Shown piece after piece: positions 2,040 through 6,208 of a DNA stretch of 34,818 bases. Position 1 is the first letter of the stretch, and each line of letters opens with the position of its first letter. The notes under the pieces were generated by a model. It worked only from the letters and a program-made list of their open reading frames with translations. It had not been told where the DNA came from and searched no databases. The DNA comes from Deltaproteobacteria bacterium (GTDB lineage: Bacteria; Myxococcota; Myxococcia; Myxococcales; JAHFDP01). Both the position numbers and the translations under genes were made by a program. The stretch covers positions 24,258 to 59,075 of the forward strand of contig JAHFDP010000016.1 of NCBI GenBank assembly GCA_023248955.1, in the 5' to 3' direction.

Positions 2040-2861
2040 TTATTGCGGCATTCCGCAGCCAATCCAAGCTAGGACGCGTTGCTTGTCGCTGGCCGACAAC
2101 GAACCATTGGGTGGCATCGATCCCGACGAGATGGCCGAGCTGATGCGGGTGTTGGAGTGAACACCGCTGTAGCTCGACGCAAAACTGTGGCAACTGACGC
2201 AATCTTTGGCGAAGAAGCTAGACGCGAAATTCGCCCAAGTGTCGTTTGTGCAGGGAGGAGTGACACCGCCGGTCGTGCTGCCACTCCCTCCGCTGGTGCC
2301 GCTGCCGACGCCAGTTGTGCCAGTGCTGCCACTGGTCGTGCCTCCAGTGCTGCCACCAGTTGTGCCAGTGCTGCCGCCGGTCGTGCCTCCAGTGCTGCCA
2401 CCAGTTGTGCCACTGCCGCCGCTGGTCGTGCTGCCGGTGCTGCCACCGGTGGTGCCGCCGCTGGTCGCACTTCCGGCGCTACTTACCGTCGTGCTGCCGC
2501 CGCCGGTCGTCGTGTCCACGGTCGTGATCGGTGTCGTGGTACCGCCGGTCGAAGTTCCAGGCTCCGTACTCGAGATAGGGTCGCACAACCCGGTCTCTTC
2601 GTTGCATGCCGTTCCGCCAGCGCATGCCGCGCCTGACGTGCAGGCCAGCGTGCAGAAGCCGTCGGCGCACGTCTCTCCTCGGCTGCAATCGAAATGCGTT
2701 CGGCACGCCGCTGGGAATGCTTGGCAGACATCGGCCACGCAGTAGGTTCCGGGCGGGCAGCGGCTGTCGTCGGTGCAGGCCGGTGCTTCGGGCGCTCCCG
2801 TCTTGATGCTGGAGTTGCCGCACGCACTTATCAAAAACGCAAGAATGGCCGCGCGCTTCAT
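2040..2861 (-). CDS. Monoheme c-type cytochrome lipoprotein with Cys-rich module and Gly/Thr/Ser repeat linker
   Basis: The 273-residue protein has a lipoprotein signal (LISAC, Cys14). A Cys-rich module at about residues 28-95 has six or more CxxxxxC-type spacings (RCPPGTYC, CSRGETCADGFC) like those in myxobacterial surface lipoproteins. Residues about 100-200 are a Gly/Thr/Ser linker built on a tandem repeat. The C-terminal domain carries one heme c motif, CVSCH at 221-225, with Met249 in SGSMPP as probable axial ligand, the usual layout of a small class I cytochrome c. It would sit on the outer face of a membrane with the heme domain held out on a flexible stalk, passing electrons from the upstream gene products. 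Its ATG overlaps the YceI stop by 4 nt (ATGA), so it is the last gene of a coupled operon. Repeat length may vary between strains. Confidence 0.85.
   Translation of the reverse strand: MKRAAILAFLISACGNSSIKTGAPEAPACTDDSRCPPGTYCVADVCQAFPAACRTHFDCSRGETCADGFCTLACTSGAACAGGTACNEETGLCDPISSTEPGTSTGGTTTPITTVDTTTGGGSTTVSSAGSATSGGTTGGSTGSTTSGGSGTTGGSTGGTTGGSTGTTGGSTGGTTSGSTGTTGVGSGTSGGSGSTTGGVTPPCTNDTWANFASSFFAKDCVSCHSFASSYSGVHSNTRISSAISSGSMPPNGSLSASDKQRVLAWIGCGMPQ
2311..2445. repeat. Three tandem copies of a 45-bp unit inside the cytochrome lipoprotein gene
   Basis: Units 2311-2355, 2356-2400 and 2401-2445 each begin CCAGTTGTGCCA on the plus strand. The first two differ at about three positions and the third is more diverged. 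Each unit encodes 15 residues, so gain or loss of a unit keeps the frame. Shorter related motifs extend on both sides. Confidence 0.85.
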
Positions 2862-3424
2862 TGCGCCACCCCCACCGCGAGATTCACCGTCATGTCCATC
2901 GTGTCGTCAATGGGCACGAACAGGAGCGACGGCCGATCGACATTGAATGCCGTGAGGCTCAAGGCGAACTTGCCCTTCGCCGCCGCATGCTTGGCATCCG
3001 CGAACGTCACCATCAGCGGAACCTCCACGGGTCGCTTCACGCCGTGAAAGGTCAGCTCACCATTCAATTTCACCTCGCGGTGCGCGGGAAAGGGCCCCGC
3101 CATCGCCACGCCATTGGCCGTGCCTTTGAACTCGACCAGTGGATACTTATTCGCCTCCACGGTCTCCATCATGTGTTCATCGCGATTACCGTTGCCCGAA
3201 TCGAACGAGCTCACCGGTACGCGCACCATGGCCTGCAGCGTGCCATCGGTCAGCAGCCGCGCGCGCCCCTGAATCTGGTGCGAAACGCCGGTCATCTCGT
3301 GGAACTTGTGGACCACGTGGTAGGTGAGCGCGCTCTGAGGAGCGACGTCGAGGGTGGCGGTGGTGTCCGAGGCGATTGCCAACGGCGCACCGAGAAAGAA
3401 CAGAACTACGATTCGATTTAGCAT
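2858..3424 (-). CDS. YceI-family periplasmic lipocalin-like protein
   Basis: The 188-residue protein has a cleavable signal peptide (about residues 1-18). The rest is a YceI domain: SALTYHVVHKFHEMTGVSHQIQG near the start, FDSGNGNRDEHM in the middle and ELTFHGVKRPVEVPLMV near the end. The domain is a beta barrel that binds a polyprenyl chain or similar amphiphile. In Escherichia coli yceI is adjacent to yceJ, a cytochrome b561 homologue. Here it lies in the same operon as a four-helix protein with b561-like histidines and two c-type cytochromes, which supports a role in carrying or protecting a quinone-like lipid. AGAGG lies just upstream of the ATG at 3424 as ribosome-binding site. The stop overlaps the next gene by 4 nt. 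Confidence 0.9.
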   Translation of the reverse strand: MLNRIVVLFFLGAPLAIASDTTATLDVAPQSALTYHVVHKFHEMTGVSHQIQGRARLLTDGTLQAMVRVPVSSFDSGNGNRDEHMMETVEANKYPLVEFKGTANGVAMAGPFPAHREVKLNGELTFHGVKRPVEVPLMVTFADAKHAAAKGKFALSLTAFNVDRPSLLFVPIDDTMDMTVNLAVGVAQ

Positions 3425-3439
3425 CGGTCCTCTCGAGGG

Positions 3440-3862
3440 TTAGGGGACGAACAAACGGCCCGGCGCTTTTTCGGCGGGCACGGTGTGACAGCTGTTGCAA
3501 CTTCCACTGGCGGGTCGATCGACCATTTTCATCGTCTGGCTATTTTCGACTTGCACTTGAATTGGAAAGTGGAGGGCCTCGGCGGTGTAGAAATTGCCCG
3601 CGCCGTTGGTGCGTAGCGTGAGTGTGTTGCCCGCGGAGTCGGTGATCACGACGTTGGCATTGGCGACGCCTTCGTCGTGGTTCGCGTGAACATCGCCGAA
3701 AACAGTTCCCGCGGCGGTGAAGCGGCGGGCGCTGGCGCTTCCTCCGGCGCTGTGACAGGCCAGGCAATCTTCGCCGGGGCGCATGGTGGGCGTGCCGTCC
3801 CAGCCAGAGACGACCGCGCCGCAGCTCATCAGTAAAACGAGGGTTCCGACCCAGATTCGCAT
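3440..3862 (-). CDS. Small diheme c-type cytochrome lipoprotein
   Basis: The start chosen is the ATG at 3862, because GGAG lies five bases ahead of it and a lipoprotein signal follows (LLMSC, Cys14). A longer in-frame reading upstream is only the shadow of the previous gene. The 140-residue product has two heme c motifs, CLACH at 33-37 and CNSCH at 122-126. Between them, GTVFGDVHANHDEGVANANVV and LRTNGAGNFYT resemble the small beta-sandwich of carboxypeptidase-regulatory-like domains. Heme motifs flanking such a domain suggest a periplasmic electron carrier anchored in a membrane. It begins 2 nt after the four-helix protein and is followed 15 nt later by yceI, so all are probably one transcript. 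No axial ligand for the second heme can be assigned. Confidence 0.85.
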   Translation of the reverse strand: MRIWVGTLVLLMSCGAVVSGWDGTPTMRPGEDCLACHSAGGSASARRFTAAGTVFGDVHANHDEGVANANVVITDSAGNTLTLRTNGAGNFYTAEALHFPIQVQVENSQTMKMVDRPASGSCNSCHTVPAEKAPGRLFVP

Positions 3863-3864
3863 CG

Positions 3865-4515
3865 CTACTCCGACATGAAGACCAGCGCGAGCGCGCCGGT
3901 GACGAGAAGGCCCGCGGTGGCGTACCCGATCGCTAAATGGGTCTGCGCCAGCGCGACTTGATCGAGGCGGCCCTCGTGCAGTGTGGTCCAGAGGCCAAGG
4001 CCCATTTCGGTGGCCATGCCTACGGTGGCGCCCGCCATGCAGATTTTGTGGATCGTCAACGAGTCGAAACCGTGCGCGGTTTTCTTTTCGAAGGGCACCG
4101 GCGCGAGCCATGCGAGGACGCCCGCGGTCGCAAAGGCCACCGTGGTTCCCGTGGCGGCCGCTGCGTGGACCAACTCGAAACGTCCCGTGGAAAACCCGCC
4201 GCCGAAACGATCGTTGTAATTGAGCTGACCGAGCACGGTTGTGCCGATCATTCCGGCGGCGGTAACGAGTCCGAGTGTCTGGTGGAGCGTGAGCAGCTGG
4301 CGCCGCTTGGCGATGCGTGGATCCGGCGCGGCGAAGGCGGCCATCGGTGCGGGCGTGGCGCCGAAGAGATCGAAATCGCTTTTCGATTCCGATGCGCGCG
4401 GCTTGGACGATGCCGCGGACGGTTTTTTATTCTCGGCTACCGCTTCGCGCGGCAGAAAAAGAATCGATGCAACAGCTAGCGAGACGAGCGAACGAACGAC
4501 GACAACATGCTGCAT
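3865..4515 (-). CDS. Four-helix membrane protein with paired histidines, predicted diheme b561-like cytochrome
   Basis: The 216-residue protein has a signal-like segment (1-27), a charged linker, then four hydrophobic helices from about residue 74. Each helix carries one histidine near its N-terminal end: His78 (LTLHQTLG), His117 (ELVHAAAA), His156 (LTIHKICM) and His193 (AQTHLAIG). Since alternate helices run in opposite directions, His78/His156 would lie on one face of the membrane and His117/His193 on the other. That geometry can hold two b hemes, as in cytochrome b561. The b561 assignment is inference from this pattern and from the neighbours (two c-type cytochromes and YceI), not from overall similarity. 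As first gene of the operon it would pass electrons from a quinol or other reductant across the membrane to the exported cytochromes. No clear Shine-Dalgarno precedes the ATG at 4515. Confidence 0.7.
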   Translation of the reverse strand: MQHVVVVRSLVSLAVASILFLPREAVAENKKPSAASSKPRASESKSDFDLFGATPAPMAAFAAPDPRIAKRRQLLTLHQTLGLVTAAGMIGTTVLGQLNYNDRFGGGFSTGRFELVHAAAATGTTVAFATAGVLAWLAPVPFEKKTAHGFDSLTIHKICMAGATVGMATEMGLGLWTTLHEGRLDQVALAQTHLAIGYATAGLLVTGALALVFMSE

Positions 4516-4880
4516 TTGCGACCCGGCGGCGACTGGTGCGTGATGTGTTTTCTTTCGGGCATTGTTGGCTGAAAGACATCGTGAGGGCTGACCCGGAGGC
4601 TCGGCTATCGGTCAACTGACCGACCCCTAACTTAGCCGGAAAACCACAATTGCCGTTACCTGCGACGGCCGATCGCGGGCCGTCTACTTCGGTGCTTGCC
4701 GCGCATATTGAAAGCGCGGCCGGCCCGATTGGTGGCGCTGGAAGCGCCCGATCACATAGCGGGCTCCTCCGGTGCCTCCTCAGCGCACCGAAAAGTGCGC
4801 TTCCGGGGGCTCCTCGTGTGCGCCTCGTAGCCGACCCACGCTCGACCGTCTCGGTTCCACGGCAACTGTGGATTTCCGGC
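4516..4880. other. 365-bp intergenic region upstream of the cytochrome operon
   Basis: No gene or RNA gene is recognised between the DUF3105 gene (ending at 4881) and the cytochrome operon (starting at 4515), both leftward. It holds a 16-bp inverted repeat (4608-4623) and three short hairpins: gacggcc arms at 4664-4670/4678-4684, a 5-bp stem at 4746-4764 and agcgcac arms at 4782-4788/4795-4801. None is followed by a T-run, so none is a confident terminator. The operon promoter must lie here, but no clear -35/-10 pair was found. Confidence 0.5.
4608..4623. promoter_or_regulatory. Inverted repeat TCGGTCA-AC-TGACCGA, candidate operator of the cytochrome operon
   Basis: Two perfect 7-bp arms are separated by 2 bp, centred about 100 bp before the first gene of the redox operon. 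The size and symmetry suit a dimeric helix-turn-helix regulator. Nothing in the sequence identifies the protein. Confidence 0.35.
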
Positions 4881-5450
4881 TTAATCCGCCAGACCCGCAT
4901 CGGGCGCATACGACTGCGGACACGCGTTCGGCGAAGGATTCGCCGCTACATCCTCGGGCCCGTTTCCCTCGTGCGCCGCGATGAAACAGAGCAGCGCATT
5001 CGCGTCCACGTTGTCTTCGAGCAGCACGAAATCCCAGGCCACGGCTGCAAACGCGGACGGCAACGTGGGCGCGGCCGTTACCAAAAGTCGTCGTCCGCCG
5101 CCGAGTGCATCGGGCGCCCTCGCCAGCAAATCGTCGAGGGCTGCGCGCGCGGCGGGGCAGGAGGTCGCATCGGCGCAGCGGTACAAGAGCACCACGCCAC
5201 CATGCTCGAGGTTGTGCATCCAGCGCTCGGGCGGCACGACGACATTCGACGATCCCCACGGCGCCCAGCAGGGCCAATGCTTTCCGCTGGTCGGTGGATT
5301 TCCGACGTAGTCGACATGCAGCGGTTCATTGACGTGGCCGGTGCCTTGGTCCGAAACTTCGCGGCCCGCGCAGGCAGCATTGATTGCGGGAGATCGGTGG
5401 CAACCGAGGAGAGCGAATAAAACAAAAGACGGTGCGATTCTTTTAATCAA
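4881..5450 (-). CDS. DUF3105-family lipoprotein
   Basis: The start chosen is TTG at 5450, because it overlaps the methyltransferase stop by 4 nt (TTGA) and is followed at once by a lipoprotein signal, IKRIAPSFVLFALLGC (Cys17). An upstream in-frame ATG would add a non-signal stretch that only shadows the methyltransferase. The 189-residue product has the DUF3105 hallmarks: HVDYVGNPPTSGKHWPCWAPWG at about residues 45-65 and WMHNLEHGGVVLLYRC at about 77-92. The His-rich HNLEHGG block could bind a metal. The biochemical role of DUF3105 proteins is not known to me. Pairs of Cys residues (for example CADATSC) may form disulfides outside the cytoplasm. It is the last gene of the radical SAM/methyltransferase run. 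No terminator is clear downstream, only a weak hairpin at 4782-4801. Confidence 0.8.
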   Translation of the reverse strand: MIKRIAPSFVLFALLGCHRSPAINAACAGREVSDQGTGHVNEPLHVDYVGNPPTSGKHWPCWAPWGSSNVVVPPERWMHNLEHGGVVLLYRCADATSCPAARAALDDLLARAPDALGGGRRLLVTAAPTLPSAFAAVAWDFVLLEDNVDANALLCFIAAHEGNGPEDVAANPSPNACPQSYAPDAGLAD

Positions 5451-6208
5451 GCGTTGCGCTCGATTCGACGCGCGATCATGAGCAGAGAAACGCCGAACGG
5501 TATTTGAAGTCGCGCGATCCAATGGCGCTCCATTCGAAATATTCGAGTGAGGAGCCAATTGATCAGCGCGGGCGGAATACCCAAATGTGATCGAGGTGCC
5601 GTTGCGTGGTGACGAAAAATCCGCATGGCCCAGCGCGCGGCCAATATCGGCGCAAAGAGAAGCGCGTTGAATCCGGTGAGGTGAATGATTTCCAGCTCGG
5701 GCGGAACCGCGGCTGCGAGGCTTTGCGACGTGTAGCGGCGATGGTGATGAACCGCTTCGTCTTGATCGCTCCAGAGAAATCGGAACGCGGGAACGGTAAT
5801 CACAGCGATACCTCCAGGCGTGAGCTGCGCCGCGGCCCAGCGGAGCGCGCCGCGATCGTCGGCCACATGTTCGAGCACATCAAAAAGGCCGAGTACGTCC
5901 ACGCGATGCGGAAGAGGCTCGGGAATTCGATGGTGAATCGTTTGAAATCGATCGCCGTGTTTGCGTTTCAAATGATCAAGCGCCGCGGTCTCCATCTCCG
6001 CGCCGAGAACGGTTCCGAACGATTCGAGCATCGCCAAATTGCCGCCGCTGGCGCAGCCAATCTCGGCGATTTGCAAGGGGTCACCGCGCGGACGGAAACG
6101 ACGAATCGCCGCCGCGATGATTTCTCGCCGGGCACGCCACCACCAGTGGCGGTCTTCAACGTCGGCGTGAATATCGTATTGAGCAGCGTCCAATTGAGCA
6201 GCGTCCAA
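5447..6208 (-). CDS. Class I SAM-dependent methyltransferase
   Basis: The 253-residue protein opens with HWWWRARREIIAAAI, the entry motif of a family of small methyltransferases often found with glycosyltransferases. The SAM-binding motif I is IAEIGCASGGNLAML (about residues 47-61), and GLFDVLEHVADD follows at about residues 107-118 as motif IV. The C-terminal third is hydrophobic and basic and may touch the membrane. The substrate is unknown; lipid-linked sugars or a product of the adjacent radical SAM enzyme are possible. The start is a TTG at 6208, 1 nt after the radical SAM stop. A second TTG at 6193 results from a 15-bp tandem duplication, so the protein may begin at either (LDAAQ repeated). 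No strong ribosome-binding site is seen, so translation probably depends on the upstream gene. Confidence 0.82.
   Translation of the reverse strand: MDAAQLDAAQYDIHADVEDRHWWWRARREIIAAAIRRFRPRGDPLQIAEIGCASGGNLAMLESFGTVLGAEMETAALDHLKRKHGDRFQTIHHRIPEPLPHRVDVLGLFDVLEHVADDRGALRWAAAQLTPGGIAVITVPAFRFLWSDQDEAVHHHRRYTSQSLAAAVPPELEIIHLTGFNALLFAPILAARWAMRIFRHHATAPRSHLGIPPALINWLLTRIFRMERHWIARLQIPFGVSLLMIARRIERNA
6178..6207. repeat. 15-bp tandem duplication at the methyltransferase start
   Basis: The unit attgagcagcgtcca occurs twice, at 6178-6192 and 6193-6207. Read leftward it encodes LDAAQ twice and gives two in-frame TTG codons (6208 and 6193), both usable as start. Confidence 0.85.

Follow-up and report, generated by a model that had tools for sequence, protein, structure and literature searches.

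A myxobacterial operon joining a b561-like four-helix protein and a divergent YceI protein to c-type cytochromes: a possible electron-export module of the inner membrane

To our knowledge, hardly anything is known of how electrons are supplied to the Gram-negative envelope for undoing lipid oxidation, and LcoA-BcnA is among the few systems described. This pair of a cytochrome b561 and a YceI lipocalin limits lipid peroxidation in Burkholderia cenocepacia, with raised products in mutants, and in the proposed model LcoA re-reduces a quinone held by the YceI protein BcnA (PMC9113575). YceI proteins bind isoprenoids, with ubiquinone-8 present in solved structures, and b561 and YceI are fused in some bacteria (PMC9113575). 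A YceI-like domain, X158, is also found in Cbp2D and Cbp2E of Cellvibrio japonicus; Cbp2D adds two c-type cytochrome domains, and its heme domain CjX183 (+193 mV) can reduce lytic polysaccharide monooxygenases (LPMOs) (PMC8981238). We analyzed a 34,818-nucleotide stretch of DNA (the window; C53:24258-59075) from a 3.8-Mb draft genome (95.6% complete) of a Deltaproteobacteria bacterium of the phylum Myxococcota, whose closest relatives compared have only the order in common with it. The window carries a tight four-gene operon (4515-2040, minus strand) in the order B, C2, Y, C1, encoding a b561-like four-helix inner-membrane protein (B), a c-type lipoprotein with two CXXCH motifs (C2), a divergent YceI-family protein (Y) and a c-type lipoprotein with one CXXCH motif (C1).

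We regard this operon as a new form of the known pairing of b561 with YceI, one to which carriers of its own, probably of high potential, have been added. As in LcoA-BcnA and Escherichia coli yceJ-yceI, whose adjacency was confirmed, the gene of a small, putative b-type membrane cytochrome is linked to the gene of a periplasmic YceI protein. An earlier note on this DNA had suggested a possible undescribed redox module, a claim that does not hold for the core, since the function of such a pair, b561-type protein and YceI, has been reported for LcoA-BcnA (PMC9113575). The myxobacterial loci differ from that system, however, in that B scores below the b561 cut-off, has one histidine per helix and is not of the LcoA/YceJ family, in that Y forms a separate YceI subfamily, and in the addition of a diheme cytochrome c or a two-cluster Rieske protein, cytochrome c not being mentioned in PMC9113575. 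Cbp2D is alike in that its YceI domain is associated with c domains of one heme each, a combination that hints at electron transfer, but Cbp2D and Cbp2E are multidomain secretome proteins with cellulose-binding modules, and no membrane b cytochrome is described for them in the part of PMC8981238 covered. No description of YceI with b561 and Rieske as one system was found in the part of the literature covered; the papers naming YceI and Rieske together were, going by title and abstract, proteome- or genome-wide studies.

The four genes run leftward and overlap or adjoin, as the earlier note had it, and they lie at the coordinates given there. The stop of B (3865..4515) lies 2 bp from C2 (3440..3862), C2 lies 15 bp from Y (2858..3424), and Y overlaps C1 (2040..2861) in ATGA. 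Homologues of B were found in 39 of 60 relatives and, across Myxococcota, in 65 of 146 genomes. The named Myxococcota loci were found with a profile of the Myxococcaceae subset, a single query of the genome contigs with window B giving no match; those carrying the module belong to Myxococcaceae and Archangium, which makes the order of the host Myxococcales or its equivalent, and include the culturable Myxococcus xanthus and Corallococcus. The regions around B were searched with profiles for Y, C2 and a Rieske partner at 66 loci, all in Myxococcota. Y adjoins B in 55 loci, the window included, and a redox carrier adjoins B in 59. As the 66 loci include close relatives, these counts are not independent; after removal of the named Myxococcota records, 35 of the 46 remaining loci have Y and 39 have a carrier, and each of ten families has at least one B locus with Y or a carrier. 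A chance grouping of unrelated genes was ruled out because most of the operon recurs in loci from these ten families. Of the gene order pointed out previously, the linkage of B, Y and a carrier thus recurs elsewhere, with the carrier mostly a Rieske protein and C1 present in few loci.

The strongest evidence that B exchanges electrons with a carrier is that the place next to it can be filled by either of two carriers that are unrelated to each other and have two redox centres each. The diheme C2 is one of two interchangeable partners (14 of the 66 loci), and most relatives have a two-cluster Rieske protein instead (41 loci), the remaining carriers being other CXXCH proteins. No locus among the 66 has both Rieske and C2 on the strand of B. 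Partner type follows B lineage. In a phylogeny of 58 B proteins, the Rieske-linked proteins form one clade (36 with Rieske, four without a carrier; support of 97 in the Shimodaira-Hasegawa-like approximate likelihood ratio test), and the C2-linked proteins mostly lie in a separate clade (support 90). Partner type changes 8 times on this tree compared to a mean of 19.5 after shuffling, and none of 200 shuffles was as low. Because shuffling takes no account of relatedness and the tree has several long branches, our claim is limited to partner type following B lineage. The host genome itself has both lineages: the window copy belongs to the C2 type, those on contigs C11 and C23 to the Rieske type. 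This exchange suggests that B transfers electrons to or from the adjoining carrier. The earlier idea of a redox module with heme lipoproteins as the electron path agrees with the linkage of B to YceI and heme lipoproteins, and had missed the Rieske partner. As a separate observation from the tree, the B protein of locus L076 (G056:C18) groups with Myxococcus, and record L097, titled Comamonas sp. KCTC 72670, is probably misnamed.

B is predicted to start with a signal peptide, and a DFDLL/F motif ahead of its first transmembrane span (TM1) is conserved. The AlphaFold2 model, built with 35 homologues, is a bundle of four long helices (residues 66-104, 114-137, 152-179 and 186-213) with a predicted local distance difference test score (pLDDT) of about 95. 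Each predicted helix holds one histidine: His78 in TM1 (codon 4282..4284, minus strand, as are all features of the operon), His117 in TM2 (4165..4167), His156 in TM3 (4048..4050) and His193 in TM4 (3937..3939). All four are invariant in the alignment of 35 sequences. In a wider set of 41, 40 sequences have all four, and only the divergent L065 departs from this, with H78R; His117, His156 and His193 are each kept in 41 of 41. The four-helix protein with one histidine per helix proposed from the sequence is thus confirmed by both model and homologues. R71, R72, L75, G82, G96, F128, P139, A163, G174 and G197 are also invariant. In the model each histidine lies near the N-terminal end of its own membrane span, and the four would therefore stand at alternating sides of the membrane. 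From the helix directions, His78 is likely to pair with His156 (side A) and His117 with His193 (side B), giving two pairs that span the bilayer as candidate heme ligands. Of the trans-bilayer pairs put forward earlier, the four-helix layout and the alternating ends are thus borne out, and the pairing itself follows from helix direction. On helical wheels the four histidines, in order, lie 50, 19, 9 and 23 degrees from the conservation moment of their helix, a moment that is significant for TM3 and TM4 only. Placement on or near the conserved face argues against histidines that face the lipid. The earlier note had held that lipid-facing histidines, or homologues lacking them, would refute the idea, and the results speak against both. 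Heme binding through these residues is inferred.

The label b561-like was given to B because of its helix count, its histidine layout and its weak profile matches. Window B had no match to PF01292 up to E = 1. Weak matches to this family were found in 12 of 35 B members (best E 0.0012; for example, 17.5 bits compared to a cut-off of 30.1 bits), and weak matches to PF03188 also in 12 of 35 (best shown 18.7 bits, cut-off 23 bits). A search for PF03188 over 40 genomes gave no match, a result of little weight as control genomes were equally without one. An alignment of prokaryotic b561 proteins of the same order with E. coli YceJ has invariant H18, H52, H145 and H159. In prokaryotic b561, helices 1 and 2 carry a single one of these histidines each and helix 4 carries two, a layout from which that of B, with one per helix, differs. 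The eukaryotic CYB561 proteins have four core helices with one heme-ligating histidine each, in two trans-bilayer pairs, and B likewise has one conserved histidine on each of four consecutive helices. B is thus b561-like in design, judged by its sequence features, and belongs to neither Pfam b561 family by score. The name given in the earlier note stands for helix count and histidine layout; it does not stand for family membership, nor for the prokaryotic layout. The host genome has no PF01292 protein, yet it has three B genes.

Y, which has a signal peptide, was called a YceI lipid-binding barrel, and its place in the YceI family is upheld by its match to PF04264 (69.5 bits, cut-off 23.7). 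Scores with this family are about 70 bits for the Y proteins linked to B and 150-196 for most other YceI proteins listed from the same genomes. On the tree the B-linked proteins lie together, away from the canonical YceI proteins of the same genomes, although a few divergent sequences on long branches fall close to them or in their midst. Their alignment retains His39 and His42 in 56 of 56 sequences and His84 in 55 of 56 (alignment numbers 26, 29 and 71). The position of His42 is not a histidine in the canonical YceI proteins aligned. By analogy with its family, the barrel of Y may hold an isoprenoid quinone or a similar lipid. A lone YceI gene of the Y type was also seen elsewhere in the host genome (contig C19, L129:4712-5347), convergent with a gene for a 586-aa protein with two CXXCH motifs.

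The two CXXCH motifs of C2 are CLACH (3752..3766), with the invariant Met27 just N-terminal of it, and CNSCH (3485..3499), with the invariant Met113 ahead of it. C2 homologues share both motifs and both methionines and have no further invariant histidine; this pattern points to hemes with His/Met ligation, a type whose potential is usually high. A conserved cysteine stands at the expected lipobox position. The part between the motifs may form a CnaB-like beta-sandwich, as suggested by matches of a low-confidence model (pLDDT 64.6), and C2 had no meaningful match among PDB sequences. The Rieske partner has two Rieske domains (PF00355 twice), with two complete CxHxxC...CxCHxS motifs in 37 of 42 proteins, and many of these proteins have a twin-arginine translocation (Tat)-type signal and a lipobox-like cysteine. 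The bc-type motif suggests a high potential. Potentials of bc-type Rieske clusters and His/Met hemes are usually above those of quinones, and a carrier of either kind, if of high potential as its motif suggests, would suit the acceptance of electrons from quinol through B. In one locus (L061:3296-4864) the C2 position is taken by a 522-aa protein with ten CXXCH motifs, apparently a C2 extended with Geobacter-type multiheme repeats.

C1 has a lipobox, a Cys-rich N-terminal part, a stalk consisting of a Ser/Thr/Gly-rich tandem repeat, and a C-terminal heme domain with the single motif CVSCH (2187..2201), followed by GSMPP with a candidate Met ligand. The operon thus holds three potential c hemes. 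The CXXCH motifs of C1 and C2 are conserved in their homologues, and the host genome has cytochrome c assembly genes (PF01578 proteins). Homologues of C1 stand beside B in few loci (L041, L042, L045 and L074), and C1 is therefore accessory. The two heme lipoproteins described earlier can thus be recognized by their motifs, lipobox positions and, in C1, the stalk; C1 is not part of the core, and C2 shares its place with the Rieske protein.

Our preferred reading, to which we give an even chance, is that the operon is an inner-membrane electron-export module whose outward flow serves envelope protection. B, as a diheme b-type cytochrome, would take electrons from the quinol pool, and these would cross the membrane via two bis-His hemes (His78/156 and His117/193) to the periplasmic face. 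A dedicated two-centre carrier in the periplasm, probably of high potential, would receive them (C2 here, the two-cluster Rieske protein in most relatives). The quinone or similar lipid in the Y barrel would exchange electrons with B or the carrier, and C1 may carry them further, as far as the outer membrane. The module would probably serve to keep envelope quinones and lipids reduced and so to quench lipid radicals, the role put forward for LcoA-BcnA, and the extra carriers may raise capacity or reach. Stress-type genes accompany the module in several loci: in L060 it is flanked by genes for an extracytoplasmic function (ECF) sigma factor and an RskA-type anti-sigma factor, in L054 Y and B are separated by an ECF sigma gene and a possible anti-sigma gene, similar-looking regulator genes (by sequence only) occur in L055, L059 and L078, and a glutathione peroxidase gene is near B in L057. 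We favor envelope stress over delivery to the surface, as it agrees better with these regulators and with what is known of LcoA-BcnA. Of the exit to the periplasm or the surface that the earlier note envisaged, the periplasmic part agrees with the carriers linked to B, and nothing specific supports the surface. A porin-cytochrome conduit through the outer membrane was considered and rejected, as the conserved cluster has no porin gene.

Several results weigh against this reading. B is under the Pfam cut-offs of both b561 families. Its alignment with the prokaryotic b561 proteins by hhalign was weak (probability 11%, E 0.0026); it matches His78 of B to H52 and His156 to H145, which gives weak support to the proposed histidine pairing. 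B and its profile had no match among PDB sequences, and Foldseek with the B model against the PDB gave no match at E < 0.4 and no b561 among the 50 matches listed; in this lack of a significant match to solved structures, as in its score, B differs from eukaryotic cytochrome b561. Side A of B (before TM1 and in loop 2-3) has about seven Lys/Arg and side B about three, so that the positive-inside rule would put side A in the cytoplasm, in conflict with the N-terminus-outside topology expected from the signal peptide. Five of the 58 rows of the B tree have no recognized carrier nearby, the Rieske-lineage paralogues of the host genome (L039, G000:C11; L040, G000:C23) have no adjacent YceI gene, and the stress genes occur in some loci only.

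The same weak likeness to b561, in helix count and slightly in motif, is what speaks for an inward flow, in which B would oxidize superoxide or radicals in the manner of E. coli CybB and the periplasmic carriers would feed electrons through B to quinone. CybB is a superoxide:ubiquinone oxidoreductase (PMC9113575), and the stress-type regulators near some loci would fit such a role. We think this direction unlikely: no dedicated carrier protein is known to be required by CybB, B does not have the prokaryotic b561 histidine layout, and the usual potentials of Rieske clusters and His/Met hemes favor acceptance of electrons from quinol.

A respiratory role is also doubtful. In it, the module would be a small, bc-like oxidoreductase that moves electrons from quinol to the carrier and from there to an extracellular acceptor, a peroxidase or a terminal oxidase. 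The combination of Rieske and a diheme b recalls the cytochrome bc complexes: the best PDB relatives of the Rieske partners are Rieske subunits of b6f and bc1, and two trans-membrane b hemes are expected in B. The carriers are lipoproteins, and the ten-CXXCH homologue in L061 has heme motifs of the Geobacter type. However, the Pfam scan of the window proteins gave no match of B to bc-type cytochrome b families, the conserved cluster has no bc-type cytochrome b, the Rieske partners are two-domain proteins, and the window operon has C2 and no Rieske gene. The conserved B cluster includes no gene for an oxidase, a peroxidase or a porin-cytochrome system, the window operon has no outer-membrane conduit, and YceI would be left without a clear function. 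A part in lipid or quinone synthesis or transport, with B and the cytochromes powering a step on a YceI-bound lipid such as desaturation or quinone modification, is very improbable, as the module has no recurrent catalytic neighbor, be it an oxygenase, an LPMO or another enzyme, even if YceI binds isoprenoids (PMC9113575) and Cbp2D joins a YceI domain to c-heme domains, one of which can reduce LPMOs (PMC8981238).

A bolder form of the electron-export reading, which we hold to be a long way from probable, is that the B proteins represent a previously unrecognized class of diheme cytochromes spanning the membrane. Together with the interchangeable carriers and a YceI quinone carrier, they would make up a minimal oxidoreductase leading from quinol to the periplasm, with no relation to the bc complexes and with envelope lipid repair as its special task. 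The electron route of LcoA-BcnA is a proposal, and two non-homologous carriers on the same membrane-YceI core point to a route. As the module is present in culturable species such as M. xanthus and Corallococcus, in which genes are routinely deleted, this route is open to genetic test.

Some further features were seen around the loci. Upstream of B in one locus (L046:3986-5371) is a gene for a 461-aa protein with one CXXCH near the N-terminus and no Pfam match; it adjoins a small c-type cytochrome, and its sequence resembles an outer-membrane barrel. In the window, a DUF3105 gene (4881-5540; 83.9 bits) lies upstream of the operon on the same strand, and none was beside B in the relatives examined. 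Between this gene and the operon is a repeat of about 250 bp (4633-4881) resembling a miniature inverted-repeat transposable element, with inverted ends (TAGCCGGAAAACCACAATTGCC / GGCAACTGTGGATTTCCGGCTTA) and a fold into a single long hairpin. The genome holds dozens of copies of it, complete or partial, and in some of them internal blocks are lost or repeated.

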